A stretch of 63,345 nt of DNA from Nitrospira sp. (GCA_019636815.1 JAHBWT010000012.1:1-63345), one strand, 5' to 3'. Shown: positions 13,076-56,549, counted from the first letter of the stretch. Numbers and translations are program-made. Notes: generated by a model not told the origin, from the sequence alone.

Positions 13076-13084
13076 GACCGGAAC

Positions 13085-14647: not shown

Positions 14648-14672
14648 ATTGATAACCTGTTTGCCTTCCGAC

Positions 14673-17610: not shown

Positions 17611-17619
17611 GTGTTCGGC

Positions 17620-18207: not shown

Positions 18208-18247
18208 CGTAGCTCCTCGTCACAGACCGGCCACCGTGCACATCCAC

Positions 18248-41380: not shown

Positions 41381-41770
41381 CCGATTGAAAACGCGTTGAG
41401 GTCACGAGAACGAATGATGCGAGCCCGATAGAGTCGGCAGGTGGCAGTTTGGGATGAGGCGATCTCATCGCTTGTCATTCAGGCGTGTGAGAATAGGCAC
41501 AGGGCTGCGCCAGTGTCCTATGAGATAGGGCTGAAAGTCTAGATCCATGTGGCCTGGATGATTTGAGGTGAGATCGCCGAAGAAGTTCAAACCGATGGTG
41601 CCGAAGGCGGGACGTAGCGCGGATAACGAAATTCCGCCAAAACTTCCCCAACCATCCTGCCAACTTAGGAGAAACTGTAGACCAGAAGCTTAGCGCAGCT
41701 GTAGACAGATTTGCAAGTAACTCGACCCTCTCTTAAGCTAGTCTCCCAGTCATAAGTAAGGAGCTTCACT
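41381..41770. other. intergenic region that contains the element boundary
   Basis: Upstream region of the five-PAS kinase, partly similar to the region upstream of the giant kinase (AAAGTCTAGATCC near 41530 and near 38560). The 18-bp attachment repeat lies at 41597-41614. The sequence to its right belongs to the mobile element and has no gene until 41771. Confidence 0.6.
41597..41614. repeat. distal attachment site (direct repeat of the tRNA-Leu 3' end)
   Basis: TGGTGCCGAAGGCGGGAC is identical to the 3' end of the tRNA-Leu gene at 56532-56549 in the same orientation. Similarity to the tRNA stops directly after it. The left flank (AACCGA) also flanks the tRNA relic at 38.6 kb. This is what is expected if the tRNA's original 3' end and downstream DNA were displaced by integration. 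Confidence 0.75.
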
Positions 41771-42145
41771 ATGAACAATTTTAGCCTTCGTATGCTCGCC
41801 ACCATCGTGTGTGTCGTCTTCCTTGTGGCTTCTGCCCTTGCCGAGCTCTCCCAAGCGAGAGCCGACGACTCACCCTTTTACTTTGACGAATCAGGCCGTG
41901 TGCAACAACATGGCTATTGGTCACCCACAAACCGTCATGCTGTGGGAGCCGAAGAAGACCGAAGGCAATACAATGCCTGGTCGAATGCAGAGGCCTTACG
42001 CAAGAATCGCGAGATGATCGACGAGTACCACGCGCCTAAGCCTGTAGCACCTCCGTCCGGTCCTTCGTCGTATTGGATCTACCCCGGTCCAGGCGAGCCC
42101 GCACGCTTCTGCCAACCGTCCTTCGGGCAAGTGATCTGCAACTAG
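41771..42145 (+). CDS. secreted protein of unknown function
   Basis: 124 residues with a signal peptide (MLATIVCVVFLVASALA). Residues 25-31 (ELSQARA) are encoded by one of the element's palindromic boxes, just at or after the cleavage site. The mature part is Tyr/Trp/Pro-rich (YFDESGRVQQHGYWSP, then PSSYWIYPGPGEPARFCQPS) with two cysteines near the C-terminus that could bond. AAGGAG precedes the ATG. First gene inside the distal end of the element; no family recognised. Confidence 0.65.
   Translation: MNNFSLRMLATIVCVVFLVASALAELSQARADDSPFYFDESGRVQQHGYWSPTNRHAVGAEEDRRQYNAWSNAEALRKNREMIDEYHAPKPVAPPSGPSSYWIYPGPGEPARFCQPSFGQVICN
41840..41865 (+). repeat. palindromic box, intragenic copy
   Basis: Contains GCTCTC-N6-GAGAGC within GCCGAGCTCTCCC and AAGCGAGAGCCGA. 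It lies in frame in the secreted protein gene and encodes AELSQARA. The same 26 bases recur at 49970 with three substitutions and at 49362 with two. Confidence 0.8.
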
Positions 42146-42530
42146 GCTGGCAAACGTAACTTACTAATTTTGCTAAATTTTTTGTCAGCCTCATGTTGGC
42201 GCCGATTTTGGTTTCTACCCCCGGTTAGGGTGCGCTAACGGCGTAAACGTGGGGGTATCTCGCTGAAAACAGGTAGGGGTGGGGCTTGGTCGGCCAACGC
42301 GATCTGGCCCGAGCCAGCGCGGTGCATATGTATTACTCAGCCTGGGTATGGTGACTTCGGGGTGTCGGCTTCGAAGGTGAGCACTGACACCAATGCCCGG
42401 CGCTAGATGGCACGCAGACATCTAACTATGTAGAATCGTTGGGAGGTCTGGAAGACTTTATATCTATCAGACAGCTCTGGCCGTCGCTGAGACGGACGAA
42501 TAACAGGATTAGCTACAGTTGTGCTACGGC

Positions 42531-42608
42531 AAGCCCTCGCTTGCGCTCGGCTCTCGCTCGGCCTTCGCCTGGGCTCTCGCTCCGGCGAGCTCGGAAGGCT
42601 CGGTAAGC
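42531..42608 (-). repeat. cluster of palindromic boxes
   Basis: Several overlapping copies of CTCTCGCTCGG-type boxes in a row. Bases 42549-42570 (22 bases) are identical to 45561-45582, which is inside a coding region. In the reverse orientation it shows CCGAGCTCGCC and GGAGCGAGAGCC, matching the intragenic boxes. Confidence 0.75.
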
Positions 42609-42703
42609 CCTGGATCATAGCCACTCCAATCAACTGCCTATTACGTACATATTACCTCGCAGCTACCGTTTAGCTTCGTTCATTTCTATCAATTCAACTC
42701 ACA

Positions 42704-42724
42704 GAGCTCGTCCCGAGCGACTCA
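42704..42724 (+). repeat. palindromic box, short type
   Basis: GAGCTCGTCCCGAGCGACTC with hairpin GCTC-GTCCC-GAGC. It matches 43480-43501 except for one extra C. Confidence 0.75.
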
Positions 42725-42817
42725 GAGGCGGTTCTTGCCGTCACTCAAACCACCCAATCAAGCCGGACGCTGTGTGTGTGTGTGTGCGTTCGTGTCTTTG
42801 ATCGAGAAGGACTACTT

Positions 42818-43513
42818 ATGTCAGGATTAATTCAACCGCCAATCCAAAGAAAGAGACTGAAGCCCGCTGGTGGATTCCAGATTTGCGACGGTGGTCCAGG
42901 CTTCAAACTCGTCAAGCGCCGGACGATGCAGAAATGGCGCAAGGCCGTTAAGGAAGTCATGCTCAACAAACGAGGCCGAGTCAGAAAGCACGATCCAGCG
43001 ATTGAACAGATGCTCCTTGATTGTGCTACCGAGTGGGCCACCTATGCCTGTCCTGCATATCAGTCTTGGCCAAGCCTCACGCCACTACAGAAGCAGCAAG
43101 CACTGTTTGCGTGGATCTTAAGACAGAAGAGGCGAACGGCTCTCGATATCCTTGTGGCGGGTATCGCCGGAGACTTATACACCACGTACGGACCACAGCC
43201 CTTGAAGACGCCATACGCGCGAGCCGTGAACGTGGGCCGGTCGGTGTGGTTTCTGTTGCGAGCGGAGTTCAAAGACTACACGCACGACGATGGACACGGT
43301 AGCATCACCGTTCAGCGGGTCTGTATTACGAAGAAGGTTCGCCTGAGATCAAGGAATGCTGCGCAGAGGATCGAACGAGCGATTAGGAAACATGCGGCTT
43401 GGTTCATTGAGAGATACGGCTACGCGATTGCATCAGAGCTCGTCCCTTCCGCCCTGGGAAGGGCTCAGGGCGACTCACGGAGCTCGTCCCCGAGCGACTC
43501 ATGTCTTCTTTAG
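42818..43513 (+). CDS. hypothetical basic protein of the element
   Basis: 231 residues, rich in Arg and Lys (RRTMQKWRKAVKEVMLNKRGRVRKHD), so it may bind nucleic acid. No known family recognised. The last 25 residues (ASELVPSALGRAQGDSRSSSPSDS) are encoded by two palindromic boxes, which suggests the original C-terminus was replaced or extended by repeat insertion. AAGGA lies six bases before the ATG at 42818; an ATG further upstream (42776) falls in the TG run. It is directly followed by the iteron-like array, so a replication-initiator role is conceivable but unproven. Confidence 0.6.
   Translation: MSGLIQPPIQRKRLKPAGGFQICDGGPGFKLVKRRTMQKWRKAVKEVMLNKRGRVRKHDPAIEQMLLDCATEWATYACPAYQSWPSLTPLQKQQALFAWILRQKRRTALDILVAGIAGDLYTTYGPQPLKTPYARAVNVGRSVWFLLRAEFKDYTHDDGHGSITVQRVCITKKVRLRSRNAAQRIERAIRKHAAWFIERYGYAIASELVPSALGRAQGDSRSSSPSDSCLL
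43436..43501 (+). repeat. two palindromic boxes at a gene 3' end
   Basis: First copy GAGCTCGTCCC is interrupted by an inserted hairpin (CCCTTCC, then GGAAGGG) before its GGCGACTCA half. The second copy (43480-43501) is intact. A CCCTTCC...GGG sequence like the inserted hairpin also occurs near 52760. Confidence 0.7.
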
Positions 43514-43590
43514 AGCCTGTCGCGCGTGTTCTAGTGCGGCCTGGTTCTCATTGAGAGATATGGGTCTTGAGGTGAGACTTCAATTAGGCA

Positions 43591-44100
43591 CCTTATAACC
43601 GAATCGTAATTGTATTGGTTTTCCTAAAGAATAATTACGGCTTCGTTTATAGCCAGAGAAGCCACCTGGTTTAATACCCGGCCCCTTTTAGCCTAATCAA
43701 CACCAAGTGCTCGTTAGTGGTCGTTCGATTATGTACTGCCTTATAGCCACTAAACGCCAAGTGTCCGTTAGTATCCGTTGATAATTGGGTACCCGTTCAT
43801 AGCCAGAGAAACCACCTGGTTTAATTACCCATCACCTGTTAGCCTAATCAACGCCAAGTGTCCGTTAGTGGTCGTTCAATTACGGCCCCCCTTGTAACCT
43901 ATTAAACGGTTCCCTGTATTTGCGGACTTGAATTAGGTTGCCCCTTATAGCCGACTAAACAGTTCTGATTAGGTTGCACCTTATAACCGAGTAAACATGC
44001 TTTGTCCTAAAGAATAATTGTGTCTCCGTTAATAGCCCGATAAACACCAAGTGTCCGTTAGTAGCCATTCGATTATGTAGCGCCTTATAGCCAGATAAAC
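43591..44100 (+). repeat. iteron-like direct repeat array, about 11 units
   Basis: Units start with CCTTATAGCC (or TTATAACC), usually followed by three bases and TAAAC. They start near 43591, 43645, 43683, 43739, 43794, 43835, 43890, 43942, 43979, 44027 and 44083, so 37-56 bases apart. Four units carry an extra CCAAGTGTCCGTTAGT, two carry CCACCTGGTTTAAT and two carry TCCTAAAGAATAATT. The region is A+T-rich and has no ORF. It is consistent with an iteron-type replication origin or a recombination or partition site. Confidence 0.75.
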
Positions 44101-44103
44101 AGT

Positions 44104-44143
44104 AGCCCTGCCTGGGTGCCTCCTCCTGCTTCCAGGTAGGGCT
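44104..44143 (+). terminator. strong hairpin at the end of the repeat array
   Basis: AGCCCTGCCTGG pairs with CCAGGTAGGGCT as a 12-bp stem with one G-T wobble and a 16-base loop, followed by TTTCAAATT. It could be a terminator or a structural part of an origin. Confidence 0.55.
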
Positions 44144-44263
44144 TTCAAATTCAAATCTGTAATACACATTTCTGTTTCCTTTACCTCGCCCTGAAGGGCT
44201 TGTGTCCATCAGCTCTTTTCACCCGCTTTGAATAATTCAAGCGTGGCTTCCTGTGGAGTTCTT

Positions 44264-44614
44264 ATGCATCGTTCGTATCCAGTCAGACGCAAGGGTAAGG
44301 CTCAATCCTCACCAGTCACCAGCATCCGGTTCGGTCCCGCCGCCCATGAAAAGTTAAATACGATTCACACCATGCTTGCAAAGCGGTGGAGATTGACAGA
44401 CAAGCCGAGCCTCTCGCTGTTGCTTGAAGGTGTCATTAGTCTCTGGGCAGATGAAATGCAGCACGATCCAAGCGCCGTCACTGACTTGCTCAACGAGATC
44501 AAAGCTCGCGGTGGAACACGGGGAAGACGCAATCAGTTTGTGCTAGATGGACAACAATTCAAGAACGAGTCCCTGACGAGGACTCTGAAAGAGACAGAGC
44601 AGGTGAACGCATGA
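44264..44614 (+). CDS. small protein, possibly ribbon-helix-helix DNA-binding
   Basis: 116 residues. VTSIRFGPAAHEKLNTIHTMLA looks like the strand and first helix of an RHH repressor, and SLSLLLEGVISLWADEM like the second helix. The rest is polar. GGAG lies five bases before ATG 44264. It is the first gene after the iteron-like array and its TGA overlaps the next ATG (ATGA). A regulator or a copy-control protein is possible; the RHH call is tentative. Confidence 0.55.
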   Translation: MHRSYPVRRKGKAQSSPVTSIRFGPAAHEKLNTIHTMLAKRWRLTDKPSLSLLLEGVISLWADEMQHDPSAVTDLLNEIKARGGTRGRRNQFVLDGQQFKNESLTRTLKETEQVNA

Positions 44615-45294
44615 ACACACGTACAGGGCTTATTGACCAACTCCTCAATGGTCCCAGCTCGCCTCTATCAAAACATGCTCTGCATTGCGAGCCGGTCACT
44701 CTAACCATGGCCGCTATGGCCGGCGCCTCCGCTGCGATGTCCATCAAAGGTCAGATGGATGCCGCCTCCCAATTCAACGCTACTGAGGAGCATCGTCGTC
44801 TCGAACAAGAGAACGTGATCGAGGAGAACCGTCGTCGGTCAACCCACGATTATCTGACCCATGTCCGCCAGGAGCAGATGCAGCAGCAGCAAGAGTTTGA
44901 GATGGTCGCTCAGAAGTCCGTGGACATTCAGCGTCAAGCTGATCGCTCCATTGCCACCGGGATGGCCTCCGCTGCCGAGCGAGGCGTCGCTGGCAGAACC
45001 GTGGATCAGATCGCCGCTGACTTCGACTTCATGGCCAACGAAGAGACCGGACGGCTGAAAGAGAACCAGAAGCTGGCGAACCAACAGCACAGCGAGAACA
45101 TCCGCTCCTTCGGAACCACCTACTCAAACCGCATTGCCGACGTGAAGCCGTACATCAAGACGCCCGCCAAGCAGGTGGACTTCTTCGGACCGATCTTCCA
45201 GGCGGGAGCACAGACCCTCCAGACAGACTTAGCGGTAACCAACGCCAACCCTTCAGCAAACACGTTCACCAACTGGTTGTCAAAAAAGTCTTAA
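44611..45294 (+). CDS. T7 gp14-like internal virion protein homologue
   Basis: 227 residues. A short Ala/Met-rich hydrophobic segment (TMAAMAGASAAMS) is followed by a long Gln/Glu-rich coiled coil. The stretch MASAAERGVAGRTVDQIAADFDF matches the pattern seen in podovirus internal virion (ejection) proteins of the T7 gp14 type. In T7 these form the channel for DNA ejection. No gp15 or gp16 partner, portal or capsid is seen nearby. Assignment is by pattern memory, so moderate confidence. Followed by a terminator-like hairpin. Confidence 0.55.
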   Translation: MNTRTGLIDQLLNGPSSPLSKHALHCEPVTLTMAAMAGASAAMSIKGQMDAASQFNATEEHRRLEQENVIEENRRRSTHDYLTHVRQEQMQQQQEFEMVAQKSVDIQRQADRSIATGMASAAERGVAGRTVDQIAADFDFMANEETGRLKENQKLANQQHSENIRSFGTTYSNRIADVKPYIKTPAKQVDFFGPIFQAGAQTLQTDLAVTNANPSANTFTNWLSKKS

Positions 45295-45331
45295 GCATGA
45301 GTCGCCCTGAGTCTTCTAGACGAAGACCGAC

Positions 45332-45362
45332 GAGGCTCACGAGCCCTCCAGGCCTCTTTTTT
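45332..45362 (+). terminator. terminator-like hairpin with T-run
   Basis: GAGGCT-CACG-AGCC(C)TC and an overlapping GAGGC...GCCTC pairing lead directly into TTTTTT, 38 bases after the stop of the gp14-like gene. It would end the first short transcript of the element. Confidence 0.6.
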
Positions 45363-45471
45363 GAGCCGTCCGTACAGCCACACGGCCCATTCATCGAGTC
45401 GTCTAGTTATCTACCCTGTAAGTCACTGATTTATCTAGATTCGTAACCCCACCCTTCACGGAGTCTCTACT

Positions 45472-45912
45472 ATGTCCCTGTCCTGTAAACCACTATCCGC
45501 CCATGAGCGGGCCAAGTCCGGTTCCCAACACTCAAGATCCCGACGACGCCAGCGAGCCGAGGCTCTCGCTCGGCCTTCGCCTAGGAAGGCTCGAGAGAGC
45601 TCGGTTGACCTAACCTTCCCTGAACGACTGAACTCGCTAGCCCAGAAGTTCTACCAACAAGCTTTGACTCATCCGGCCTTTGTGCTTATGGCGCCTTCGG
45701 AGATCAGGCAATCCATCGAAAACCGTCTATGGGCAATTGCGGCTCGTTATCCGGCTTGGTTCGGCTGTGGGTCGGCCACGAAGCGGGAAGCAACCGAGAA
45801 ACAACTCATGGCACTAGAAAAGGCCAGGCAAGCGAAGGCCGGAGCTGTCTCAGCGACAGCCACTTTAACGACAGAGGAGTGTGAGCGTGAGCCTCGTCGA
45901 GGCGACTCGTGA
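45472..45912 (+). CDS. hypothetical protein with a repeat-encoded segment
   Basis: 146 residues. The N-terminal 45 are low-complexity and basic; RQRAEALARPSPRKARESS is encoded by a palindromic-box cluster whose 22-base core (45561-45582) is identical to the intergenic copy at 42549. The remaining part (LNSLAQKFYQQALTHPAFVLM, then RLWAIAARYPAWFGCG) looks helical. GGAG lies eight bases before the ATG. The stop overlaps the next gene (GTGA). Function unknown. Confidence 0.6.
   Translation: MSLSCKPLSAHERAKSGSQHSRSRRRQRAEALARPSPRKARESSVDLTFPERLNSLAQKFYQQALTHPAFVLMAPSEIRQSIENRLWAIAARYPAWFGCGSATKREATEKQLMALEKARQAKAGAVSATATLTTEECEREPRRGDS
45561..45582 (+). repeat. palindromic-box core, intragenic
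   Basis: A 22-base exact copy of 42549-42570, here inside a coding region. Next to it is AAGGCTCGAGAGAGCTCGG, another partial box. Confidence 0.8.
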
Positions 45913-46214
45913 GCAACGTATCCGAGCCTTCCGAGGCGAAGGCCAAAAAAGAATTACATCGAGCGAAGATGAAGCAGTGGCATATAACACATCCGAACTA
46001 TCAACGCGAACACAAGGCTCGGCAGAAACAACTGCAAACTGAGCTTGGGTGTAGCCTGAATGGTTCGCTTCCACTGAAGCTCGCTGATGGCTCACCATCG
46101 ATCAAACGGATCAAAGGCAAGCTGCCCTACTCAATCCACGTTACACACCCATTGCAACCAGAAGAGAAAGTCGTTCGAGCCAACCATCACACCACCAAGG
46201 AGGAACCGCGATGA
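45909..46214 (+). CDS. hypothetical small protein
   Basis: 101 residues from a GTG that overlaps the previous stop (GTGA). HITHPNYQREHKARQKQLQ is basic and helical. SEPSEAKAKKE near the start comes from a G+C-rich box-like stretch. It ends overlapping the next ATG (ATGA). No family recognised. Confidence 0.55.
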   Translation: MSNVSEPSEAKAKKELHRAKMKQWHITHPNYQREHKARQKQLQTELGCSLNGSLPLKLADGSPSIKRIKGKLPYSIHVTHPLQPEEKVVRANHHTTKEEPR

Positions 46215-46447
46215 ATAATCCATTTGTAGTGCCCCTGCCAAAGAAGAAGAAGAAAAAGAAGCCAGCAACACCCTCTGAAGAACTGCGTTGTTCAGTTTGT
46301 AACTCAGATCAGCGTGTTATCCGGCAATGGCTGGCGTGTACCTACTGCGATGAAACCTTGCAAGGTTGGGATGATGCTTCACCTGAAACAATGCAAGCAT
46401 GGACACGCCGCAAAGTGTGGCCGTCACCACAAGTAGGGACCGCCTAA
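46211..46447 (+). CDS. small zinc-ribbon-like protein
   Basis: 78 residues: a lysine run (KKKKKKK) near residue 11 and two cysteine pairs, CSVC and CTYC, spaced like a zinc ribbon (about 27-30 and 43-46). Such small zinc proteins are common in phages and plasmids. ATGA overlap with the previous gene. Confidence 0.6.
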   Translation: MNNPFVVPLPKKKKKKKPATPSEELRCSVCNSDQRVIRQWLACTYCDETLQGWDDASPETMQAWTRRKVWPSPQVGTA

Positions 46448-46449
46448 CC

Positions 46450-46704
46450 ATGTCTGCAACTTTTCAAACCAGACCACCCAAGCGCCGACACAACGAACCT
46501 ATGAGCGAACACGAGATTAGCCGTGAGATTGATAAAGAGCGTTTGTATCACAGGCTCTGTTATCGGGGCTCTGTAGCTATTTGTCAATGCGGGAAGTCTT
46601 ATGTAGATCCGACAAAAGGGGACATGAATTGGAGACACGACTACCATGTTAAGGCAGCGCTTGAGGCCTTTGAGAACAAGCTGAGAGGAATTCATGGCGA
46701 CTAA
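46450..46704 (+). CDS. hypothetical small protein
   Basis: 84 residues, start at ATG 46450 two bases after the previous stop. One CQCGK motif plus a Cys at about 38 and DMNWRHDYHVKAALEAFENK. It might bind a metal. A longer upstream start (46399) would overlap the zinc-ribbon gene. Overlaps the next gene by 11 bases. Confidence 0.5.
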   Translation: MSATFQTRPPKRRHNEPMSEHEISREIDKERLYHRLCYRGSVAICQCGKSYVDPTKGDMNWRHDYHVKAALEAFENKLRGIHGD

Positions 46705-47245
46705 AAAGCAGAGCGTCGCTAAGACGCGCCTTAAGAAAAGCATCCCAACGTATCCCGGTCCGTATTGGCCGGACCTCAACGCACTCACCGATGCCGAAGT
46801 GGACCAGGCCTATCGTGATCTGAATGTGAAACCTCGCCCGCTCCCGTGCGAACACGCGGACGATGCGCGATTCGTTACCGCTTATGGTGATAGAGAAGAG
46901 CCCATCGAATGGACTCCAGGTAATCCGGTATACGACTGGACACCAGAAGAAGTGAAGGCGCTACGACAACGGATTCGTGTGTGGTATCGAGGCTGTTTAA
47001 AGGTTGAGTTGTACAACCTCTACATTGAGCGCTGGGTGGCCACGCTCTCAGATACCGAGTGCTGGTCTATCATCGCAGACGTTGAGGGAAAACGCCCCTC
47101 GATCTCAGAACAGCGCTACACAAGCCGCGAGCAGTTGAGACAACAGACGCAAAGTGTGGTGTACCAGAAGAGCCCAGCGACCACGGCGAAGGCCGAGGCG
47201 ACCACCCACACCCAACAGGAAGGAGAGTCTATGAAATGCAACTGA
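46694..47245 (+). CDS. hypothetical protein
   Basis: 183 residues. PYWPDLNALTDAEVDQAYRDLN, then EWTPGNPVYDWTPEEVKALRQRIRVWYRGCLKVELYNLYIERWVATLSD; a Trp/Tyr-rich helical core and a polar Thr/Gln tail. No family recognised. It overlaps the genes on both sides by 10-11 bases, as in phage-style gene packing. Confidence 0.55.
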   Translation: MATKKQSVAKTRLKKSIPTYPGPYWPDLNALTDAEVDQAYRDLNVKPRPLPCEHADDARFVTAYGDREEPIEWTPGNPVYDWTPEEVKALRQRIRVWYRGCLKVELYNLYIERWVATLSDTECWSIIADVEGKRPSISEQRYTSREQLRQQTQSVVYQKSPATTAKAEATTHTQQEGESMKCN

Positions 47246-47460
47246 ATCAACATGGACTGCCTGTCATCCCCGCGACTAAGACAAAGCGGAACCCCCTGCT
47301 ATTCAATTTTGAAAATAATCGAACATTCGCCATCTATGCGATGACGCAATGGCGGCAAGAACTCAACCGAAGGACACAACTACATGAACAACGAGAACGC
47401 GAACAACAGCAAACTGGACGAGGCCCCACCGAGGACTCCAGGACGAAGAGTCTATTCTGA
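47236..47460 (+). CDS. hypothetical small protein
   Basis: 74 residues with NRTFAIYAMTQWRQELNRR and a Gln/Glu-rich end. It overlaps the previous gene by 10 bases and the next by 77 bases in another frame. The unusual overlap means one of the two reading frames may be shorter than shown. Confidence 0.45.
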   Translation: MQLNQHGLPVIPATKTKRNPLLFNFENNRTFAIYAMTQWRQELNRRTQLHEQREREQQQTGRGPTEDSRTKSLF

Positions 47461-47611
47461 CAATACAGGGATTTCGATTGGAGAGACCTTAGCCGCTTCA
47501 ATCACAAAGCAGCAATCAGGACAAGAAAAGCTACGTCCGTTTTCCTCGGCGAATGTGCGACTTGTTCCTGGTTCAACTGCCCACTTACTAATCAGACCCA
47601 AACATTCTTAA
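47384..47611 (+). CDS. hypothetical small protein
   Basis: 75 residues (KLDEAPPRTPGRRVYSDNTGIS, then GETLAASITKQQSGQEKLRP). Its first 25 codons run over the end of the preceding gene in a different frame. The part after 47460 is unshared and protein-like. No family recognised. Confidence 0.45.
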   Translation: MNNENANNSKLDEAPPRTPGRRVYSDNTGISIGETLAASITKQQSGQEKLRPFSSANVRLVPGSTAHLLIRPKHS

Positions 47612-47625
47612 CAAAGGAGCCCAGC

Positions 47626-48279
47626 ATGGCTGACAGAATCAAGCTAGGAAAGCAGTACCAAGACAACTCGGATTTGGTTATTCCACTTTGGCGTACTTAT
47701 CCAGATGGCCGGAAGGAACGCATCACGTCCTTTGCTTCGCAGGAGGAGCTACTAAAGGCCATGGATGCAGTAGATCCCAACTCAGGAGAATCTCTCTATG
47801 CGAAGTCCGAGCTATTCCGGGCGAGTGTTGAAGAGATTATTAACAACACCCCAGCCGAAGTGATTGGCGTCCAGCTTGAACAGCGCTCACCCATTCCCAC
47901 CGACGAGGAGATGCTCCAGGGGTTGCGGGAAGACGCTTTACGACAACAGTATCAGCGAATGGTAGACGCCGGTGGCGGTAATGACGCCATTGCGAAATAC
48001 AACCTTGCTCTCATGCTTACAAACCCAACCGAGGAACAGTACGCGAACTACCAGGATATGCAGCAGCTCACCCAGCCGGAAGGAAACCGACCATACGAGA
48101 ACTACCTGAAAGAGAGGAAAGCAGCTGGTCTAGGTCCGCAGCAAGACAACGTGCCTATGGAAAGCGAGGAAGAACGAGCGGCCAAGGAGGTAGCACACAA
48201 CGAGGAGGTACTTACCTGGCTGGCTTCTCAAGACATTGGAGACAGCATCACGATCGGAGATGAAGGAGTGGAGGTATAA
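47626..48279 (+). CDS. hypothetical acidic protein
   Basis: 217 residues, acidic and helical (PTDEEMLQGLREDALRQQYQ and LMLTNPTEEQYANYQDMQQL). AAAGGAG lies before the ATG, the clearest ribosome site of this gene run. Possibly a scaffold-like or assembly protein by composition, but that is a guess. It abuts the next ATG with no gap. Confidence 0.55.
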   Translation: MADRIKLGKQYQDNSDLVIPLWRTYPDGRKERITSFASQEELLKAMDAVDPNSGESLYAKSELFRASVEEIINNTPAEVIGVQLEQRSPIPTDEEMLQGLREDALRQQYQRMVDAGGGNDAIAKYNLALMLTNPTEEQYANYQDMQQLTQPEGNRPYENYLKERKAAGLGPQQDNVPMESEEERAAKEVAHNEEVLTWLASQDIGDSITIGDEGVEV

Positions 48280-48720
48280 ATGCCACCTAAAACTTTTCAA
48301 AAGATCGACCTAGCACAACCGGCCACGACAAACCAGCGCGACAAGGCCCCGACAACTAAGACCGATAACAGCAAGCCCTTTGCAACCTGCGGTGAGAGCT
48401 CGTCTGCTCTCGCTCAAGAGAGCTCGGGCGAGAAGACCTCGTTCAACTACGGCGAGCAGAATGAGTATAACGCCACGGTCCCTTATCCCGGCACTCGCCG
48501 GCTAGTGAATGTCACGGTCAATGCACCTGAACTTCAAGAAGGTATCCGCAAACAGAAAGAGGCCTTCGCCAGGACGATTCAAGCCAACCAAGAATACCGC
48601 AGAGTCCCGAAGGGTCAACGAGCACTGAAGCACAAGTTACCACTTCAAGAGGAATATCTAGAAGACGGGGATATTAAAGTGACGAGACCTTCCACAGTCA
48701 CTACACGAAAGGAACATTAA
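48280..48720 (+). CDS. hypothetical protein with a repeat-encoded segment
   Basis: 146 residues. Residues about 38-50 (GESSSALAQESSGEK) are encoded by a GAGAGCTCG box pair at 48394-48432, kept in frame. The remainder (VPYPGTRRLVNVTVNAPELQEGIRKQKEAF) looks ordered. No family recognised. It starts right after the previous stop. Confidence 0.55.
   Translation: MPPKTFQKIDLAQPATTNQRDKAPTTKTDNSKPFATCGESSSALAQESSGEKTSFNYGEQNEYNATVPYPGTRRLVNVTVNAPELQEGIRKQKEAFARTIQANQEYRRVPKGQRALKHKLPLQEEYLEDGDIKVTRPSTVTTRKEH
48394..48432 (+). repeat. double palindromic box, intragenic
   Basis: GAGAGCTCG occurs twice around CTGCTCTCGCTCAA, in frame inside a coding region. The arms can pair as GAGAGC / GCTCTC. Confidence 0.7.
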
Positions 48721-48723
48721 CCG

Positions 48724-49131
48724 ATGGGATACGCCACGAGAGAAACAGAAATTTCGACGCCAATCTACTCAGCTTGGAAACTACCAAATGGAAACTTAGT
48801 CTCAACCAAAATCGAACGTACGCCCACGACCCGAATCGATCAGGGCGACAGCGGTCTTGAACCAGAAACACACAGCTACGCCGATGTTGCCGCTGAAATC
48901 GTCGGAGCGATTGGGCCGGTCACTCAGCGAAGGCCGGATAGTGGGAATTGCTTCACGTACACATTCGAAGATGGCAATGACGAGGGCGACTTCAGCATCG
49001 AGCGTGGTCAGCTGGTTCGCACAGAAGGCCATACACTCACTGGTCCGTACGAACTAGCGCTGAGAGTCAGCGAAGGTAGTCCTCTGTATCGATCCTTCCC
49101 GGTTGAGATCACAGTCACCGTCGCTTCCTGA
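48724..49131 (+). CDS. protein with a cadherin-like beta-sandwich pattern
   Basis: 135 residues. The C-terminal half (NCFTYTFEDGNDEGDFSIERGQL, then GPYELALRVSEGSPLYRSFPVEITVTV) has the alternating beta pattern of a bacterial cadherin/VCBS-like repeat: F-S/T-I...G-L...Y-E-L-x-V-R-V...F-x-I-T-V-T. Such domains act in adhesion, including on phage tails and virions. Last gene of the tightly packed run (three bases after the previous stop). Confidence 0.5.
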   Translation: MGYATRETEISTPIYSAWKLPNGNLVSTKIERTPTTRIDQGDSGLEPETHSYADVAAEIVGAIGPVTQRRPDSGNCFTYTFEDGNDEGDFSIERGQLVRTEGHTLTGPYELALRVSEGSPLYRSFPVEITVTVAS

Positions 49132-49495
49132 GTCCTCGCTGGTCGCCTGGAGCGTCTTCCGTCCTCGGAAGGACTTCGCTCAGACGCGACTTTGAGACCA
49201 GGCTCCGGGGACTCGTCCTAAGCCTCGTCTCTTCCTCCCTCACCCGCTCAATCTGATTTAGCTGTAGCCCTATGGCGTGGTTTGCCCAAGCCTTGCGAGG
49301 CTTGTGTGAATCGCGCCTGATGGATAACTACATTCGACATCCAAACGAGTCGCCGAGGCTTGCCGAGCTTTCCCAAGCGAGAGCCGAGGGCTCGCCTAGT
49401 CCGGCTCACGAGTGGCTGTAGGGTTTCAACGGCCTGCACTGGTTCAAACAACTGGTGTAGGCCGTCTCATCAGCTCAAATAGAAAGAATGAATCT
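49132..49495. other. non-coding region with inverted repeats
   Basis: 364 bases without a supported gene. Contains CAAGCC-TTGCGA-GGCTTG (49286-49303) and a stretch of GTCCTCGGAAGGAC, both able to form hairpins, and the palindromic box at 49362. One of the hairpins may end the long transcript from 45.4 kb. Confidence 0.5.
49362..49387 (+). repeat. palindromic box, intergenic
   Basis: Same 26-base unit as at 41840 and 49970. One arm reads GCTTTC, so its pair with GAGAGC has a G-T wobble. Followed by GGGCTCGCC. Confidence 0.8.
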
Positions 49496-49750
49496 ATGTC
49501 AGTAGACTTCAAAGGGCGAGAGTTGGTCATCGGAAATGAAGTGGTCTTTATCAGTGCACCGAACACATTGCAGCAAGGAACCATCACAGGCTTCGTAAAA
49601 CTCAGCTCGAGGCTAACACTCGTTCAAATTGTTGTGGATCTTCCAGAGTCCTCAGCGAGCCCTCAGCGAGCTTCGGGGACTCGTCCAGACGGAGGGCAGG
49701 CCACCCTTCAAGTTGCGCCATGTGTATGTGCCAGGGTGCTAGCATCATGA
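49496..49750 (+). CDS. hypothetical small protein
   Basis: 84 residues. MSVDFKGRELVIGNEVVFISAPNT, with QGTITGFVKLSSRLTLVQIVVDL, has the look of a small SH3/KOW-like beta barrel. The C-terminal third (ASPQRASGTRPDGG) is encoded by box-like G+C-rich sequence, CCTCAGCGAGCC and GGGACTCGTCC. The ribosome site is weak. Confidence 0.45.
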   Translation: MSVDFKGRELVIGNEVVFISAPNTLQQGTITGFVKLSSRLTLVQIVVDLPESSASPQRASGTRPDGGQATLQVAPCVCARVLAS

Positions 49751-49845
49751 CATCAGTCTTCCACAAGTGGACTAAATCTAAGATCTAAGTCCGCAGTTTT
49801 GAACGACTAGAAAATCTCTCTAATCCGCTCCATTAGTGGAACACT

Positions 49846-49860
49846 TCCACATGTGGATAA
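49846..49860 (-). promoter_or_regulatory. perfect DnaA box next to a 12-bp palindrome
   Basis: The minus strand reads TTATCCACA (49852-49860), the strict DnaA box. It overlaps the palindrome TCCACATGTGGA (49846-49857). A related TTCCACAAGTGG lies near 49752. This may link expression or replication of the element to host DnaA, or be a regulator operator that matches by chance. Confidence 0.5.
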
Positions 49861-49877
49861 TTATACTTAGGTGGTAT

Positions 49878-49924
49878 TTGACTCCTAGCTGGATGGTGGT
49901 AGTATTCGAGCAGTTATTACCACC
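49878..49924 (+). promoter_or_regulatory. promoter with overlapping inverted repeat
   Basis: TTGACT (49878-49883), 16 bases, TAGTAT (49900-49905). The inverted repeat GGTGGTA (49895-49901) / TACCACC (49918-49924) covers the -10 and start region and is a good operator candidate. The ATG of the next gene follows at 49943 with AAGGAG. Confidence 0.6.
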
Positions 49925-49942
49925 AATACCAAGGAGTACCCA

Positions 49943-50197
49943 ATGGCACAACCAACAAACAAGCCAGTTGCCGAGCTCTCCCGAGCGAGAGCCAAGAACG
50001 AGGTCTTCCAGTTCGCAGTAACCAAGATGTCTTTCATAAAGAATACTCAACGCATGCTGATGAACCACGGGCTCGATCTGGCCACGCCCGAACAATTGGA
50101 GACAGATTGGGCAGAATTCAAAGACAGGATTTCCCAACTGAGAAGCTTCTATCACGTGCCCGGCCCGAGACCTGTAAAACGCTCCATAAATAAATAG
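49943..50197 (+). CDS. hypothetical small protein with a repeat-encoded peptide
   Basis: 84 residues. Residues 10-16 (AELSRAR) are encoded by a palindromic box in frame. The remaining part (VFQFAVTKMSFIKNTQRMLMNHGLDL and LETDWAEFKDRISQLRSFY) is helical. AAGGAG lies six bases before the ATG and a regulated promoter precedes it. It lies upstream of the helicase-like gene, so it could be an accessory replication or regulatory protein. No family recognised. Confidence 0.6.
   Translation: MAQPTNKPVAELSRARAKNEVFQFAVTKMSFIKNTQRMLMNHGLDLATPEQLETDWAEFKDRISQLRSFYHVPGPRPVKRSINK
49970..49995 (+). repeat. palindromic box, intragenic copy
   Basis: GCTCTC-CCGAGC-GAGAGC is a perfect 6-bp inverted repeat. 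It encodes AELSRARA in this frame, the same peptide (one change) as the copy at 41840 in an unrelated gene. Confidence 0.85.
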
Positions 50198-50209
50198 CAG
50201 TAAATAACA

Positions 50210-50272
50210 AAGCCGGATGCCTGTCCCCGCAAGGATCAGGAGTGGTTGCCGCCACCTTTCAACATCCGGCTT
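50210..50272 (+). promoter_or_regulatory. structured leader before the helicase-like gene
   Basis: AAGCCGGATG (50210-50219) and CATCCGGCTT (50263-50272) form a perfect 10-bp stem that closes a 43-base internal region. The internal region includes a smaller GTGG...CCAC stem. The structure ends 22 bases before the start codon. It may be an attenuator, a protein-binding leader, or a small RNA. Confidence 0.5.
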
Positions 50273-50294
50273 CCCTTTTGAAAGAGGAACACCC

Positions 50295-52235
50295 ATGCGA
50301 ACAAGTACCAAGCTCTCCAGAACGAGCGCCGAACTCACAACAGCCGCCTACCAACGGCTCGAGCACTTTTTACGACGCAACACCAATCCCACTGAGCAAC
50401 AGCTTCGGGCGCTCCACGCTTTGATGGACAACTTTTCGAGACTCACACACAAGGAAGCCACTGGCAGGTATGCGTGGCCCTTGCCCGTTGGTTTCGGGAA
50501 GACCTCAAGCGCATGTCACTACGTAGCCGAAGCCATAAAGGACGGCTTCAGTTTCGTTATCGCGTGCGGACAGCTGCAGGGATTGAATGACATCAATAAA
50601 GTTCTCGTCACCAACCTTGGAGTAGACCAAGACCTAATAGGAACGCTGGTGAACATCGACCTTCACAAAGACGTACAAGGAACAATTGCATATCAACCAG
50701 AGCAATTCCCTATTCTCTTGGTCACTCACGCTAGAGTTCACATGGGTAAGGAGCAACTGGAGAGATACTGGAAATATGACGGGCACGAGCGAGACTTATT
50801 GATCTATGACGAAAGCTTGATCAGCTCGAAGTCAGTTATCAGTTTGATTACAACCATTGAAACTGCACTCTATGACCTGGAGGGTAGGGTCAACAGACGT
50901 GGTTTTCCTATCTCATCTCCCTTTCTACAGTTCGCGCAAAGACAGCTTGAGAAATTCATTGACAAGCATGAAGAACTAAAACGACATGCGGCTTTCTTCA
51001 AGATGGATCACCCAACACACGAAGTCCCCAACGAGTTTAAACACGCGAACATTACGCTGGATGCAATGGACGCGGATAAGTTTGAAAACGACCTTGCTGT
51101 ACTCAGATCACAAACTGAATGGAATCCTCGACCATTGCTCGACTTCTTGGAATTATGTGGAACCGAGGTGAGACTAGCGCTTAACGACCAAGGGGATAGT
51201 GCCCTGTCCTACATCGTAACTGTTCCCGATGACATACACACGATGGTCATTCTTGATGCCAGTTCACCTATTCGCCTGTTGTCCCAGCTCGACACGAAGA
51301 ACCGAGTCATAGAGGCGACGACACTTCCGTTAGTCCAAGCCGCTGGCATCACCGACCTAGCCGCGTTATACGACTACTCGAATGTCAGCTGGTATTGCTA
51401 CAAAGCTGGTGGCGGCAGAAGTTCTTTCAAGAACGACAAACAGAACACACGGATTAAAGACTGTGTTGGGTTGTTAAAAAAGGACATTCCACAGGACGAC
51501 CCTGTTCTCTTCTATGTCTTTAAGAAACAGACGACCAACAAGAAAGAGAAAGACCTAGAGACTATCCTGAAGAAGGAGTTATCAAAATACGCCTATGACT
51601 TTGAGTCAGACACGAAAAGAATCTTTATCGAGACATTCGGTAGAGAGACATCGAGTAACAGCTATCGACACTGTAAGCATGTCGTCTTTGTCGGAACACC
51701 TTGGCAACATCGGCTACACCTGGTCGCTAATGTTCTAGGCCAAAAGCGAGACATCAAGATTCATATTCCAGACCAACAACTCCATGACATCGAAGTAGCT
51801 GAAGTGGCCTATAGGTTTCACCAAGGGGCTGGTCGAGGGTGTATGAGACAGAATGGCCCCGATGGTAGACCCCAGCCCATGTCCGTCTACTGCTTTCTCA
51901 CAGACGAGCAACGAGCTGAACTGCTACCGCTACTGGCCAAGGTCTTGCCAGGGATGAAGACACCTGAGAAACGTCTGACCAAGGGACACCAGACCACAGC
52001 CAAGCAAGATACAGTTGAAGCCTATATCCAAGAGCGATTAGCCGCATGTTCTAGTCATATGACTAAGACTAGCGGCTTATTTCAGATGTCAACGAAGGCC
52101 TTAAAGCGAGATTTACCTATCCCTGTCAGTATCGACACCTTCACTAGGGCCTTGAATAATCTACTAAAAAAGTCCCCAGGGTGGTCTAAGGTGAGTAGAA
52201 GCCTAGTCTATAAGCGACCAACCCTAGCCGCCTAG
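50295..52235 (+). CDS. SF2 helicase-like ATPase of the element
   Basis: 646 residues. Walker A-like WPLPVGFGKTSSACHYV (about 49-65), motif II as LLIYDESLI (about 169-177), and a late motif VI-like HQGAGRGCMRQ (about 514-524). The order and spacing fit a superfamily 2 DExx helicase or translocase. No primase, nuclease or zinc domain is recognised, and the closest family is unclear. It could drive replication or DNA transfer of the element. ATG 50295 is chosen because GAGG lies seven bases upstream. Its first 15 residues (STKLSRTSAEL) come partly from a degenerate palindromic box. Base use is more A+T-rich than the host genes. Confidence 0.65.
   Translation: MRTSTKLSRTSAELTTAAYQRLEHFLRRNTNPTEQQLRALHALMDNFSRLTHKEATGRYAWPLPVGFGKTSSACHYVAEAIKDGFSFVIACGQLQGLNDINKVLVTNLGVDQDLIGTLVNIDLHKDVQGTIAYQPEQFPILLVTHARVHMGKEQLERYWKYDGHERDLLIYDESLISSKSVISLITTIETALYDLEGRVNRRGFPISSPFLQFAQRQLEKFIDKHEELKRHAAFFKMDHPTHEVPNEFKHANITLDAMDADKFENDLAVLRSQTEWNPRPLLDFLELCGTEVRLALNDQGDSALSYIVTVPDDIHTMVILDASSPIRLLSQLDTKNRVIEATTLPLVQAAGITDLAALYDYSNVSWYCYKAGGGRSSFKNDKQNTRIKDCVGLLKKDIPQDDPVLFYVFKKQTTNKKEKDLETILKKELSKYAYDFESDTKRIFIETFGRETSSNSYRHCKHVVFVGTPWQHRLHLVANVLGQKRDIKIHIPDQQLHDIEVAEVAYRFHQGAGRGCMRQNGPDGRPQPMSVYCFLTDEQRAELLPLLAKVLPGMKTPEKRLTKGHQTTAKQDTVEAYIQERLAACSSHMTKTSGLFQMSTKALKRDLPIPVSIDTFTRALNNLLKKSPGWSKVSRSLVYKRPTLAA
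50310..50333 (+). repeat. degenerate palindromic box at a gene start
   Basis: AAGCTCTCCAGAACGAGCGCCGAA keeps GCTCTCC and CGAGCGCC of the box but the arms no longer pair fully. Encodes KLSRTSAE, similar to AELSRARA. Confidence 0.55.
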
Positions 52236-52265
52236 TGGTCTGACTATACCCCCGAACCCTATAGT

Positions 52266-52468
52266 AACGTAGTTAAGGAATGAATAAAATCAACGACTTT
52301 TAACTGCGTTAGTGTCTGCAGTTAACTACGTTAGGTTTGCTGCACCCCTCGGTTTCTACTTATAAAATCCCGGTTCCCAACCACAGTTCAATGTAACAAG
52401 TCCCGCCAAAGTCCAAAGTTGTTACATCCAAATGAAACAAGTCGGAGGTTTTATGAAAGTTGTTACAT
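52266..52468 (+). promoter_or_regulatory. regulatory region with two operator-like repeat families and a promoter
   Basis: TTAACTRCGTTAG occurs at 52300-52312 and 52322-52334, with an inverted AACGTAGTTAA at 52266-52276. A promoter candidate TTGCTG (52337-52342), 18 bases, TATAAA (52361-52366) follows. Then ATGTAACAA (52391-52399) and inverted TTGTTACAT at 52419-52427 and 52460-52468; the last lies just inside the next gene. The layout suggests tight repression or autoregulation. Confidence 0.6.
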
Positions 52469-52704
52469 CCAATAGTCGAGTTAAGCTGCACCGAGCCAGG
52501 GTCAAACGGTCGTTACCGCTCCAGCGTCTCCTGCAAGCCGCTGAGCTCGCCTACCTCCGACACAAACAGCGGGAGGTCTACACTAAGGCCTTCGTGGGTC
52601 GGATTGAGCGTCTACTCCTGAGCCTCACCAGAGGCGATGCCTGGCTCACCCAAAGTTTACCAAGAAGTTCGAATTCGCGATTAGAGACTGTAACGATGCC
52701 TTGA
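52453..52704 (+). CDS. small basic protein, possible regulator
   Basis: 83 residues, strongly basic and helical (KLHRARVKRSLPLQRLLQAAELAYLRHKQREVYTKAF). CGGAGG lies four to five bases before ATG 52453, so this start is preferred over ATG 52432. It is surrounded by operator-like repeats, one of them inside its first codons, so autoregulation is plausible. No helix-turn-helix can be assigned with confidence. Confidence 0.5.
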   Translation: MKVVTSNSRVKLHRARVKRSLPLQRLLQAAELAYLRHKQREVYTKAFVGRIERLLLSLTRGDAWLTQSLPRSSNSRLETVTMP

Positions 52705-52844
52705 GATATGCAGCGGTGGTCGGACAGATCTGAAGCAGGTCTCCGCTGAGGAACCCTTCCCAGGGCGGGAATCAGACACCTATAAAGTAGCTTTGCTAGA
52801 GTGATTTGGCTACACTGTGAACGCTCCTATTAGGAGGGTGAGAT
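52705..52844. other. short intergenic region
   Basis: Holds a CCCTTCCCAGGGCGGG segment similar to the inserted hairpin at 43443 and the strong ribosome site (AGGAGG) of the next gene. No clear terminator. Confidence 0.45.
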
Positions 52845-53624
52845 ATGCCTGTTAACAGGAAAGAACTAAAGAATAAGCCTCTAGTTGAGGTCATTCTGGA
52901 ACTGAAGTGGGTTCTGCAGCAGGGGAAACAAGGCCCTCAGTTTTCCTTTGATACGGGTTATCGCCTCTTACTTGGAAGATTTTTTGAAAAGGTAAAAGCG
53001 GAGTATCCAGCCCACAAGGCATTACCCACAGCCTCAGTCCCCGATGAGATGGTTGCTGGAATGGTTCAGCATCGCTTCCAAACACAGCCAGACAGCTGGC
53101 CCCTTATCCAACTCGGTCCAGGTGTGTTAACGGTAAATGAGACTTCAGGTTATACATGGGAAGACTTTAGTAAGCGTTGTCAGAAAGCTATTACCTACCT
53201 CCTAGAGGCCTATCCTACCGATGGCGGGCCTAAGGTTGATGAACTAACGTTATGGTATATTGATGCTGTTGAATGTAATTATTCGAAAGACAATCTTTTC
53301 AAATTTCTAGAAGACAAGATGAAGGTGAAAATTCAACTGCCTGATAGCTTGTTTACGGGAATACCTGTTGGTAATGCGCCAACCTCATTTCACTGGGAAG
53401 TCGCCTATCCCATTAATAGTCCAAAGGGACAGATCAAGATGAGATTCCGAACGGGAGTTAAGCAAGATGTCCCTGCTATAATTTGGGAGACTCTTGTGGT
53501 TTCCAAGGGGACAGATTGCCCCGCTCTCAGAGATTTTAGTGGGTGGTTGACCTCGGCTCATGAGGTAACTGATGAGTGGTTCTTCAGGTTAATCGAAGGT
53601 GACTTAGAAAAGAGGTTCTCCTGA
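52845..53624 (+). CDS. TIGR04255 family protein
   Basis: 259 residues. NKPLVEVILELKW near the N-terminus, followed by WPLIQLGPGVLTVNETSGYTWEDF and ELTLWYIDAVE, fits the sporadically distributed TIGR04255 family, whose function is unknown. Such genes often lie in variable or mobile regions. TAGGAGGGTG precedes the ATG. The next gene starts inside its stop (TGATG). The gene is more A+T-rich than the chromosome. It heads a three-gene cassette at the integrase end, the usual place for cargo. Confidence 0.75.
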   Translation: MPVNRKELKNKPLVEVILELKWVLQQGKQGPQFSFDTGYRLLLGRFFEKVKAEYPAHKALPTASVPDEMVAGMVQHRFQTQPDSWPLIQLGPGVLTVNETSGYTWEDFSKRCQKAITYLLEAYPTDGGPKVDELTLWYIDAVECNYSKDNLFKFLEDKMKVKIQLPDSLFTGIPVGNAPTSFHWEVAYPINSPKGQIKMRFRTGVKQDVPAIIWETLVVSKGTDCPALRDFSGWLTSAHEVTDEWFFRLIEGDLEKRFS

Positions 53625-54001
53625 TGCAATCAGTTAGATTAGCTACTAACACGAGCCTTGATAATGATGAAACAAGTCAGTTGCCAATTCGGCCAGATAT
53701 CGCACAAATTGGTACAACTTCAAAGAGACAGCCACTAGCCCCATTTAGAGCGGTTACAACTGGAATTATCCTTTCAATCATGAGTGCGTCTTGTACCGCC
53801 GTTGCATCTCCACCTTGGTTACAAGGTAGATTTCGTGATGGCTCCTCAGTATATGGGTTTTATCCTGCGAAACGATATCGACGCATAAGTCTCCCTGAGG
53901 CAAGGTCTCTTGCACTCCAAGCTCTCCTTCAAGCAGAAGCAGAGAGAATCGAGGCTGCGGATTGGGAAGCAAGAACCGCCTATGAATGGTTTGTGGTCTG
54001 A
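53624..54001 (+). CDS. hypothetical protein, middle gene of the cassette
   Basis: 125 residues. A polar N-terminal 40 residues is followed by one weak hydrophobic segment (AVTTGIILSIMSASCTAVASPP), then RFRDGSSVYGFYPAKRYRRISLPEARSLALQALLQAEAERIEAADWEARTAYEW, a basic and helical part. It could be membrane-anchored. Starts and ends by TGATG overlaps with its neighbours, so the three proteins are probably made together. No family recognised. Confidence 0.6.
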   Translation: MQSVRLATNTSLDNDETSQLPIRPDIAQIGTTSKRQPLAPFRAVTTGIILSIMSASCTAVASPPWLQGRFRDGSSVYGFYPAKRYRRISLPEARSLALQALLQAEAERIEAADWEARTAYEWFVV

Positions 54002-54645
54002 TGATCTATTCTTATCCTGACCCCACGGCTCCAATTAGGCAGGGAGACATCTTCATAAATCTCCCCCGTGTTGATCTATCATTAGCAAGTGTATTGGTAT
54101 TGAAGGAAGGGGAAGACCAGCTTGTCGAAATGCCTTGGGAAGACATCGCATTGGCTGGACAACCGGTAAGTGCGACTATCGCGCTACGACCAGTGGCAGC
54201 AATTGTAGCAAATCAAGATTGTGATACTTTGCATGGACGTGATGTAACGCTCTGTGAAATTAGACCATTCCGCGATGTTGAAAGAAGTGCTAAAGACACG
54301 ACTGCACCCAATAAGTGGGTTTCAAGGATTACTCAACAGGCTCGCATTAACCAAAAATGGTTCTATCTTCCTCCAGATACCCAAATCGGTTTCACCGAAA
54401 AGATGGGCGTGGATTTCATGGTGACGATTCGAGTAGCCAGAACTGATCTTGAAAACCTTAGGACCTTTCGTAGAGCGCGGCTAAACGATGTCGCTGATGA
54501 ACATTTTAGAGAACGAATATCAGAGTTCTTTCGTCGCTATCCATACGATGAGTGGTACTCCCTTAATAAAGATGAACTAGAGCATTACAAGAAGGAGCAT
54601 CCTGAAGCTGAACCATTTCCTTGGCAGAACTTCCCTCAGTCATGA
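54001..54645 (+). CDS. hypothetical protein, third gene of the cassette
   Basis: 214 residues. IRQGDIFINLPRVDL opens the protein and PVAAIVANQDCDTLHGRDVTLCEIRPF follows (about 76-102). This QGDIF plus QDCD arrangement recurs, as I recall, in uncharacterised proteins from mobile regions. The Asp/Cys pair could be a catalytic or metal site. The C-terminus (FRERISEFFRRYPYDEWYSLNKDELEHY) is helical. ATG 54001 overlaps the previous stop. Its 3' end meets the decayed recombinase coming from the other strand. Confidence 0.6.
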   Translation: MIYSYPDPTAPIRQGDIFINLPRVDLSLASVLVLKEGEDQLVEMPWEDIALAGQPVSATIALRPVAAIVANQDCDTLHGRDVTLCEIRPFRDVERSAKDTTAPNKWVSRITQQARINQKWFYLPPDTQIGFTEKMGVDFMVTIRVARTDLENLRTFRRARLNDVADEHFRERISEFFRRYPYDEWYSLNKDELEHYKKEHPEAEPFPWQNFPQS

Positions 54646-54828
54646 AGCGGCCTCTTCTGTCTGGGCCAGAATGTCGTTAACCACACCGTCATATCGCAAC
54701 TTCTCTAGAGCATCCTGCAGTGTCTCCATCGAGTCAATTCCTTGTGCACATACTGCTCATGCACATTTCCCGCTGAATGCCCTGTCCAAGCGTCTCCGCA
54801 ATGTTCACCGGTACTCCAGCACTATGCA
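54640..54828 (-). pseudogene. C-terminal remnant of a second tyrosine recombinase
   Basis: Reading across two frameshifts gives LHSAGVPVNIAETLG, GHSAGNVHEQYVHKELT and METLQDALEKLRYDGVVNDI. GHS...EQYVH is the end of a tyrosine recombinase catalytic domain with the active tyrosine. It is related to, but different from, the end of the intact integrase that adjoins it (GHASQGIHGQVYD). It looks like a predecessor integrase that was overwritten by the present one. Confidence 0.65.
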
Positions 54829-56447: not shown

Positions 56448-56531
56448 GGATACCTCCTCAGGCTGTAGCTTTGTCTACAGTTTCTAAGAAGGCTAGCTGC
56501 GGATTGGCTCTGGAGCCAACTAGAGGATGGG

Positions 56532-56549
56532 TGGTGCCGAAGGCGGGAC
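56532..56549. repeat. tRNA-side attachment site
   Basis: Identical over 18 bases to 41597-41614. It covers the CCA end, the acceptor 3' strand and the first bases of the T arm, the standard crossover region for tRNA-targeting tyrosine recombinases. Confidence 0.78.

Follow-up and report, generated by a model that had tools for sequence, protein, structure and literature searches.

A 21-bp palindrome, probably mobile, of T7-like phages and tRNA-integrated elements of Nitrospiraceae

Introduction

What kind of sequence is a short palindrome that recurs, in both orientations, between and inside the genes of a single integrated element? The stretch of DNA analysed here (63,345 nt, GCA_019636815.1 JAHBWT010000012.1, Nitrospira sp.; hereafter the window) belongs, as contig C24, to a Nitrospiraceae genome of 4.01 Mb. 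A preliminary description, made from the window sequence, had noted a family of palindromic boxes, all of which lie within a phage-like element integrated at a transfer RNA (tRNA) gene:

41596-56549: phage-like integrated element (14.95 kb, holding all boxes), with 18-bp direct repeats TGGTGCCGAAGGCGGGAC at both ends
56532-56615, minus strand: tRNA-Leu at one element end, the integration site

We find it likely that the principal box (the A box) is a 21-bp mobile palindrome spreading among T7-like phages and tRNA-integrated Nitrospiraceae elements, presumably moved by an enzyme acting in trans. The exact size of the unit, the presence of identical units at unrelated sites, the existence of box-free sites and the nesting of copies together point to the movement of a discrete DNA unit.

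Sequence and structure of the A box

Comparison of the copies defines a core of 21 nt, GAGC-nnT-C-NNN-RGC-G-Ann-GC[CGA], rather than the 26 bases initially proposed, with a stem of 6 bp and a loop of 6 nt (some copies are 20 nt long with a 5-nt loop). The boxes reported at 41840, 49362 and 49970 were confirmed; they share ~96% identity over 26-29 nt and have their units at 41843-41863, 49365-49385 and 49973-49993. Four of the six stem pairs are invariant in the alignment, the outer bases and the loop GC are conserved, and the two middle pairs change on both sides together (TC/GA, CT/AG, TG/CA and CG/CG; subtypes TCT, CTT, TGT and CGT). The conservation of paired positions, suggested as a check, was thus observed as two-sided stem changes with pairing kept: all cells of the alignment are paired, with 14 two-sided changes versus 4.9 in shuffles, a count that is inflated for the part of the set gathered by a pattern demanding complementary triplets, because that pattern required pairing. 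The TCT, CTT and TGT subtypes were each first recognised by plain sequence comparison. Moreover, stem base 5 matches loop base 12 (T with A, C with G), a correspondence outside what the search pattern imposed, so that GC(n) can pair with either of two (n')GC copies on the 3' side. Freedom from stop codons in all six frames was considered as a special property and rejected, as many copies contain a stop in at least one frame and 42% of random G+C-rich 21-mers are stop-free.

The A-type copies of the window are given below; G117 denotes Nitrospira sp. BO4 (JAMPUU010000020), in which a syntenic sibling element (~27-79% protein identity) occupies positions 3742-18989, and ORF stands for open reading frame.

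41843-41863, plus strand: A box, stem TCT, encoding ELSQARA in ORF 41771-42145; the G117 orthologue lacks exactly 21 nt
42549-42603, minus strand: nested composite with half an A box (42549-42559), a CTT box (42560-42601) and an A-type box (42572-42592) in the CTT loop
45561-45602, minus strand: A box (TCT) in ORF 45472-45912, its loop holding a CTT box (45572-45592)
45842-45861, plus strand: A-type box, stem TGT, 5-nt loop, in ORF 45472-45912; a near-identical box occurs in G117 and G136
45924-45944, plus strand: CTT box, encoding EPSEAKA in ORF 45909-46214; the N-terminus minus the box has the G117 length
48405-48425, minus strand: A box (TCT) in ORF 48280-48720; the G117 orthologue is 27 aa shorter there
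49365-49385, plus strand: spacer copy of the A box, with a larger palindrome-like stretch (49347-49412) around it
49973-49993, plus strand: A box, encoding ELSRARA in ORF 49943-50197
50310-50330, plus strand: decayed A box AAGCTCTCCAGAACGAGCGCC at the N-terminus of the helicase-like ORF; the G117 N-terminus is of equal length without the box

The description of copies both between and inside genes holds; the copy at 49365 is a spacer copy. The range had been drawn to 50333, and what lies near that end is the decayed copy.

Confinement to the element

The pattern GAGC(nnn)C N5-6 G(n'n'n')GC occurs six times in the 14.95-kb element and is absent from the remaining 48.4 kb of the window; dinucleotide shuffling of the element (500 replicates) yielded it 0.018 times on average (maximum 1). 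A search of the whole 4.01-Mb genome with the first pattern, allowing up to 3 mismatches, returned 5 matches, all in the element (reversed control: 0). A covariance model built from 13 copies was run on 175 genomes of the family and on a 395-genome sample of the phylum, and in the source genome it reported 7 places with E<=0.01, again all within the element. The observation that no copy lies outside the element is therefore upheld by both searches, and the box is not a feature common across the chromosome. In the phylum sample 23 places reached E<=0.01, and 15 of them are in elements: the window element accounts for seven, those of G117, G128, G020 and G057 together for another seven, and G136 for one. 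The G136 case is included because a single contig there carries the box and, 15 nt away, sequence that matches an ORF of the G117 element. The other eight are scattered single places (G085, G091, G084, G132, G103 and three genomes of other families), which we treat as chance matches. The family search adds two copies in the G087 element.

Simpler queries were less informative. The raw motif GCTCTC-N6-GAGAGC, put forward as the unit, corresponds to real boxes, but with 2 mismatches its matches are not above chance; the loop and flanks are thus needed for significance, and the structure-aware pattern was used. A scan of local DNA-hairpin energy at a fixed threshold did not separate element and chromosome and was abandoned. 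The exact CTT-box 19-mer has 7 matches in 84,980 genomes, two of them in known Nitrospira elements; as ~3.7 would be expected by our own estimate, the remaining five are treated as chance.

Box-free sites, shared units and nesting

The helicase-like ORF of the element (50286-52235), used as a query, identified relatives in 13 other genomes. Besides the sibling in G117, elements of 10-15 kb between 18-22-nt direct repeats were found in G087, G128 (two elements), G020, G056, G057 and G017, in several cases integrated at tRNA-His; the related tRNA-integrated elements carry the same boxes at different positions. Comparison of homologous sites reveals clean differences. At the site in ORF 41771 the window reads CTTGCC[GAGCTCTCCCAAGCGAGAGCC]GACGACTCACCC and G117 reads TTTGCCGAGGATTCACCC, an exact 21-nt difference, and at the site in ORF 45909 VSNVS[EPSEAKA]KKELHRAKMKQWH corresponds to MTDDSKRKRRTEAARQWH in G117, of equal length minus the box. 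The two elements of the one G128 metagenome-assembled genome differ at the DNA level by precisely 21 nt (GGCTTCG[GAGCTGTCTTCAGCGACAGCG]CTAGACG versus GGCTTCGCTAGACG), with identical flanks of ~35 nt on one side and 14 nt on the other. The N-terminus of the helicase-like protein, minus the decayed copy, equals that of G117 in length up to the first conserved residues. In ORF 49412, 42 nt (14 codons) including a C-type palindrome (see below) are absent from G117; 42 is 2 x 21, and the insertion may represent two nested units. ORF 48280 is not a precise case, because the 27 codons absent in G117 include the box at 48405 but exceed it. The reverse direction is also represented: in G117 the loop of the helicase leader hairpin contains a box that the window lacks at this place. 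The suggestion of a small intragenic mobile palindrome is thus supported, the G117 orthologues of ORFs 41771, 45909 and 49412 and of the helicase gene being without the insert and with the frame kept; together with the box-free G128 site, they also show that homologous genes do not all carry the box at one place.

Identical units occur at unrelated places: 22/22 nt are shared by window 45923 and G117 11514, 23/23 nt by G117 10908 and G128b 15130, and 25/25 nt by G128b and G087. Copies also lie within the loops of other copies. At G087 10346 a TGT box sits within the loop of a CTT box; at window 42560-42603 the loop of a CTT box holds an A-type box at the identical position, the outer flanks being unrelated; and at window 45561-45602 a CTT box lies within the loop of a TCT box. 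Excision of exactly 21 nt restores a canonical box in each of them (G087 10346, window 42572 and window 45572). The 22-base core said to be identical at 42549 and 45561 is indeed exact, and it represents the A-to-CTT junction of the nested composites; an opposite nesting order of the two window composites was considered and dropped, since both have the A-then-CTT junction. About 0.023 loop insertions are expected by chance, which gives P ~3e-4 under a rough model counting only two independent events. Against shuffles, the G087 composite (z ~-2.7) and the window 45561 composite (z ~-2.4) fold as nested hairpins, and the stretches 42535-42610 and 49346-49414 fold no better than shuffles.

The leader hairpin upstream of the helicase-like gene, GCCGGATG...CATCCGGC, is itself conserved (window 50211-50270; L034 of G117, 11500-11590). 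Between the two G128 elements (L060/L061 versus L062) both arms of the helicase leader hairpin differ together, GGCTATAG...CTATAGACGG versus GGCTCTCG...GAGAGACGG, in DNA that is otherwise 96% identical; this joint change indicates that stems turn over quickly in these elements.

Boxes in T7-like phage contigs

Among the viral contigs of IMG/VR, L128 contains two exact TGT boxes and L134 three copies, one box in each being in frame in a small ORF (ELSSATA and ELSKRQR). Both contigs are T7-like, with terminases of one common family, and L128 also encodes a tail fibre and an internal virion protein. The L128 terminase is ~61% identical to those of marine Roseobacter phages; three Roseobacter phages related by this terminase have no box. 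Single TGT matches in five other viral contigs may be due to chance, scans of the viral contigs with the TCT unit found none, and CTT-type matches, mostly in one conserved coding gene, were set aside as chance. BLAST searches of the boxes against annotated phages gave chance-level matches only.

Possible mechanism and alternative explanations

We propose that a nuclease, recombinase or transposase would copy the A box and insert it in trans, recognising its hairpin and cutting by preference at the loops of hairpins, probably during replication or a single-stranded state of the replicon. The loop insertions suggest that the enzyme works on hairpins in extruded or single-stranded form, and a T7-like phage may be its source. 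Intragenic insertions would survive because 21 nt equals seven codons and the reading frame is kept. More tentatively, and with the balance tilted against it, we speculate that the A box could represent a new class of transposable DNA: a gene-less 21-bp hairpin, too small for ordinary terminal repeats, which T7-like phages or their satellites would move, by means of a hairpin-recognising enzyme, into other hairpin loops, compound palindromes growing by 21 nt at each step.

Several points weigh against mobility. Neither a mobilising enzyme nor an autonomous relative came to light, and transposition itself was not observed. The direction of change, insertion and not deletion, is secure for the nested copies alone and elsewhere relies on the repeated nature of the unit, and the preference for loops could in part reflect where insertions are tolerated. 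Flanking direct repeats of the A boxes do not exceed 2 nt and accompany only part of the copies (the last base matches in 11/19, permutation p 0.016), so that a classical target-site duplication is not established; to this may be added the inflation of the covariation count mentioned above. Longer target-site duplications were also considered and dropped; some compound palindromes show apparent flank repeats of 5-7 nt (45886 CGTGAGC, 49347 ACGAGT, 49644 TCCAGA).

If the boxes did not move as units, they could be functional protein- or RNA-binding sites of the stoperator, packaging or replication type, kept dispersed by selection and multiplied by recombination or local duplication. Confinement to the element and to phage replicons, conserved outer bases and loop GC, and the several copies in spacers and leaders would all fit such a role. 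We nevertheless regard it as unlikely: copies stand within coding sequence as in-frame 7-codon inserts that orthologues lack, others lie within the loops of further copies, and both orientations occur; besides, the positions differ between sibling elements and the stem sequence itself varies. Somewhat less probable still is that the A boxes are elements similar to repetitive extragenic palindromes (REPs), moved by a host REP-associated tyrosine transposase (RAYT) or another Y1 transposase of the IS200-IS605 type. Their size and hairpin shape are REP-like, and Y1_Tnp genes (PF01797) are present in 7/8 box-carrying genomes examined, including the host. The chromosomes that house such transposases, however, have no boxes, the A-box stem is not accompanied by a GTAG or CGTC tag, and G020, a complete genome in a single contig, carries a box while lacking any Y1_Tnp match; carriage thus does not depend on a resident Y1 transposase, although the G020 box could have arrived together with its element.

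Were the palindromes formed locally during replication, through template switching or quasi-palindrome correction and without any movement, this would account for the joint change of both stem sides seen, for instance, in the helicase leader hairpin of G128a and G128b. Yet local copying would not be expected to yield near-identical 21-25-nt units at unrelated sites of different genomes, a fixed size of 21 nt, or end and loop bases that stay constant, and we give this explanation hardly any weight. The mobile 21-bp palindrome remains our preferred reading. If it is right, the A box is among the smallest mobile DNAs described, with clean before and after sites, and it shows short hairpins spreading through the genes of phages and satellites with reading frames unbroken. 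The family was not found in the literature searched, which is weak evidence of novelty given that most subscription papers fell outside the search.

Other palindromes and genes of the element

Two further palindrome types accompany the A box. The type GAGCTCGTCCCGAGCGACTC, described as related and recurring, was confirmed at 42704 with relatives at 43436, 43480 and 45889; this B-type (GAGC nnn YYC n'n'n' GCGACTC, enlarged by ~21 nt at 43436) was seen only in the window element. The C-type, GAGTCCTC...GGGACTCGTCC, occurs in the window element (49130, 49646) and in G117 (5826). Both are companion families of the A box, less well supported as mobile units; their mobility is plausible and hinges on one site.

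42704-42723, plus strand: B box GAGCTCGTCCCGAGCGACTC in a spacer
43436-43476, plus strand: B-type palindrome of 41 nt enclosing a smaller one, part of the C-terminal extension of ORF 42776-43513
43480-43500, plus strand: B box of 21 nt, in the same C-terminal extension
45889-45908, plus strand: B box GAGCCTCGTCGAGGCGACTC at the end of ORF 45472-45912
49130-49214, plus strand: C-type palindrome GAGTCCTC...GGGGACTC, 85 nt, with several nested stems (DNA fold z -2.7)
49646-49682, plus strand: C-type palindrome, part of the 42-nt in-frame insertion in ORF 49412-49750 absent from G117

Only the genes for the integrase and the helicase-like protein were recognised in almost every element, and the window element otherwise comprises many small ORFs without recognised function. 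The recognised genes, besides the helicase-like one, are:

44611-45294: T7 gp14-like internal virion protein (PF24072)
54822-56447, minus strand: tyrosine integrase (Pfam matches)

The gp14-like protein is 79% identical in the G117 element and has no match among annotated phages; no capsid genes were recognised in the 15-kb window element. With a lone gp14-like protein, tRNA integration and no recognised capsid genes, the element appears satellite-like. The sole match of an Rfam scan was the tRNA. A serine recombinase is encoded in some elements and an endonuclease VII-like protein, of the junction-resolving type, in that of G117 (L034 7030-7686); neither was seen in the window element. Between two element ORFs (window 43560-44120) lies an AT-rich array of diverged direct repeats (TATAGCC...AAACACCAAGTGTCCGTTAGT), of which 43644-43731 and 43794-43882 are 88% alike. 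A palindrome pair similar to TCCACAAGTGGA / TCCACATGTGGA occupies an equivalent place in both siblings (window ~49757 and ~49845; G117, L034, ~11213 and ~11290) and may be operator- or origin-like. The G020 box (L041 10438-10520) is followed by three tandem copies of GCGGCCCTCAAAAGGGCGA.

Comparison with known systems

Phage stoperators are short repeats of fixed sequence dispersed in genes and spacers of one phage-like replicon, and the A boxes resemble them in this distribution. Unlike stoperators, the A-box copies are discrete 21-nt insertions absent from orthologues, and instead of a fixed binding sequence they display TCT, CTT, TGT and CGT stems that vary with pairing kept. With respect to miniature inverted-repeat transposable elements, the stem arms of the A box act as inverted repeats, flanking matches are limited to 2 nt in part of the copies, and no parental transposon was seen. 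Rickettsia palindromic elements (RPEs) are chromosomal in Rickettsia and ~100-150 bp long in the case of RPE-1. The likeness to them that had been proposed holds for behaviour only: like the A box, they are palindromes that enter unrelated genes without shifting the frame, contribute a peptide and are missing from orthologues. The A box differs in its 21 bp and in its confinement to phage-like replicons.

REPs are palindromes of 20-40 nt, some of them intragenic; those of the GTAG type are thought to be moved by RAYTs, and members of the GTAG and CGTC super-families carry GTAG or CGTC as an unpaired tag on one hairpin end (PMC3733652). The A boxes have neither tag nor a CCA tail (aligned copies start with GAGC and end with GC[CGA]; in the C-type palindromes CGTC overlaps the 3' arm), they occur in a genome without a Y1_Tnp match, and they are not dispersed in chromosomal intergenic space, all matches with E<=0.01 in their own genome being in the element. 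Yeast mitochondrial GC clusters, such as GC42, are short G+C-rich palindromes with a presence/absence pattern like that of transposable elements and no identified enzyme; they have short flanking direct repeats (AG or ACT), and their units merge and shuffle (PMC4478555). The A boxes share the short G+C-rich palindromic form, the presence/absence, the merging of units and the lack of an identified enzyme, a resemblance of behaviour only. GC42 is 42 nt long, mitochondrial and more conserved in stems than in loops (PMC4478555), whereas the A box is 21 nt long, resides on bacterial phage-like replicons rather than in mitochondria, has compensated stem changes, stands in frame in genes and is nested in loops. 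By behaviour, then, the A box is closest to yeast GC clusters and RPEs, and if it is indeed mobile, the movement of enzyme-less palindromes (GC clusters, RPEs and CGTC REPs) becomes testable in bacteria with phage-encoded candidate enzymes.

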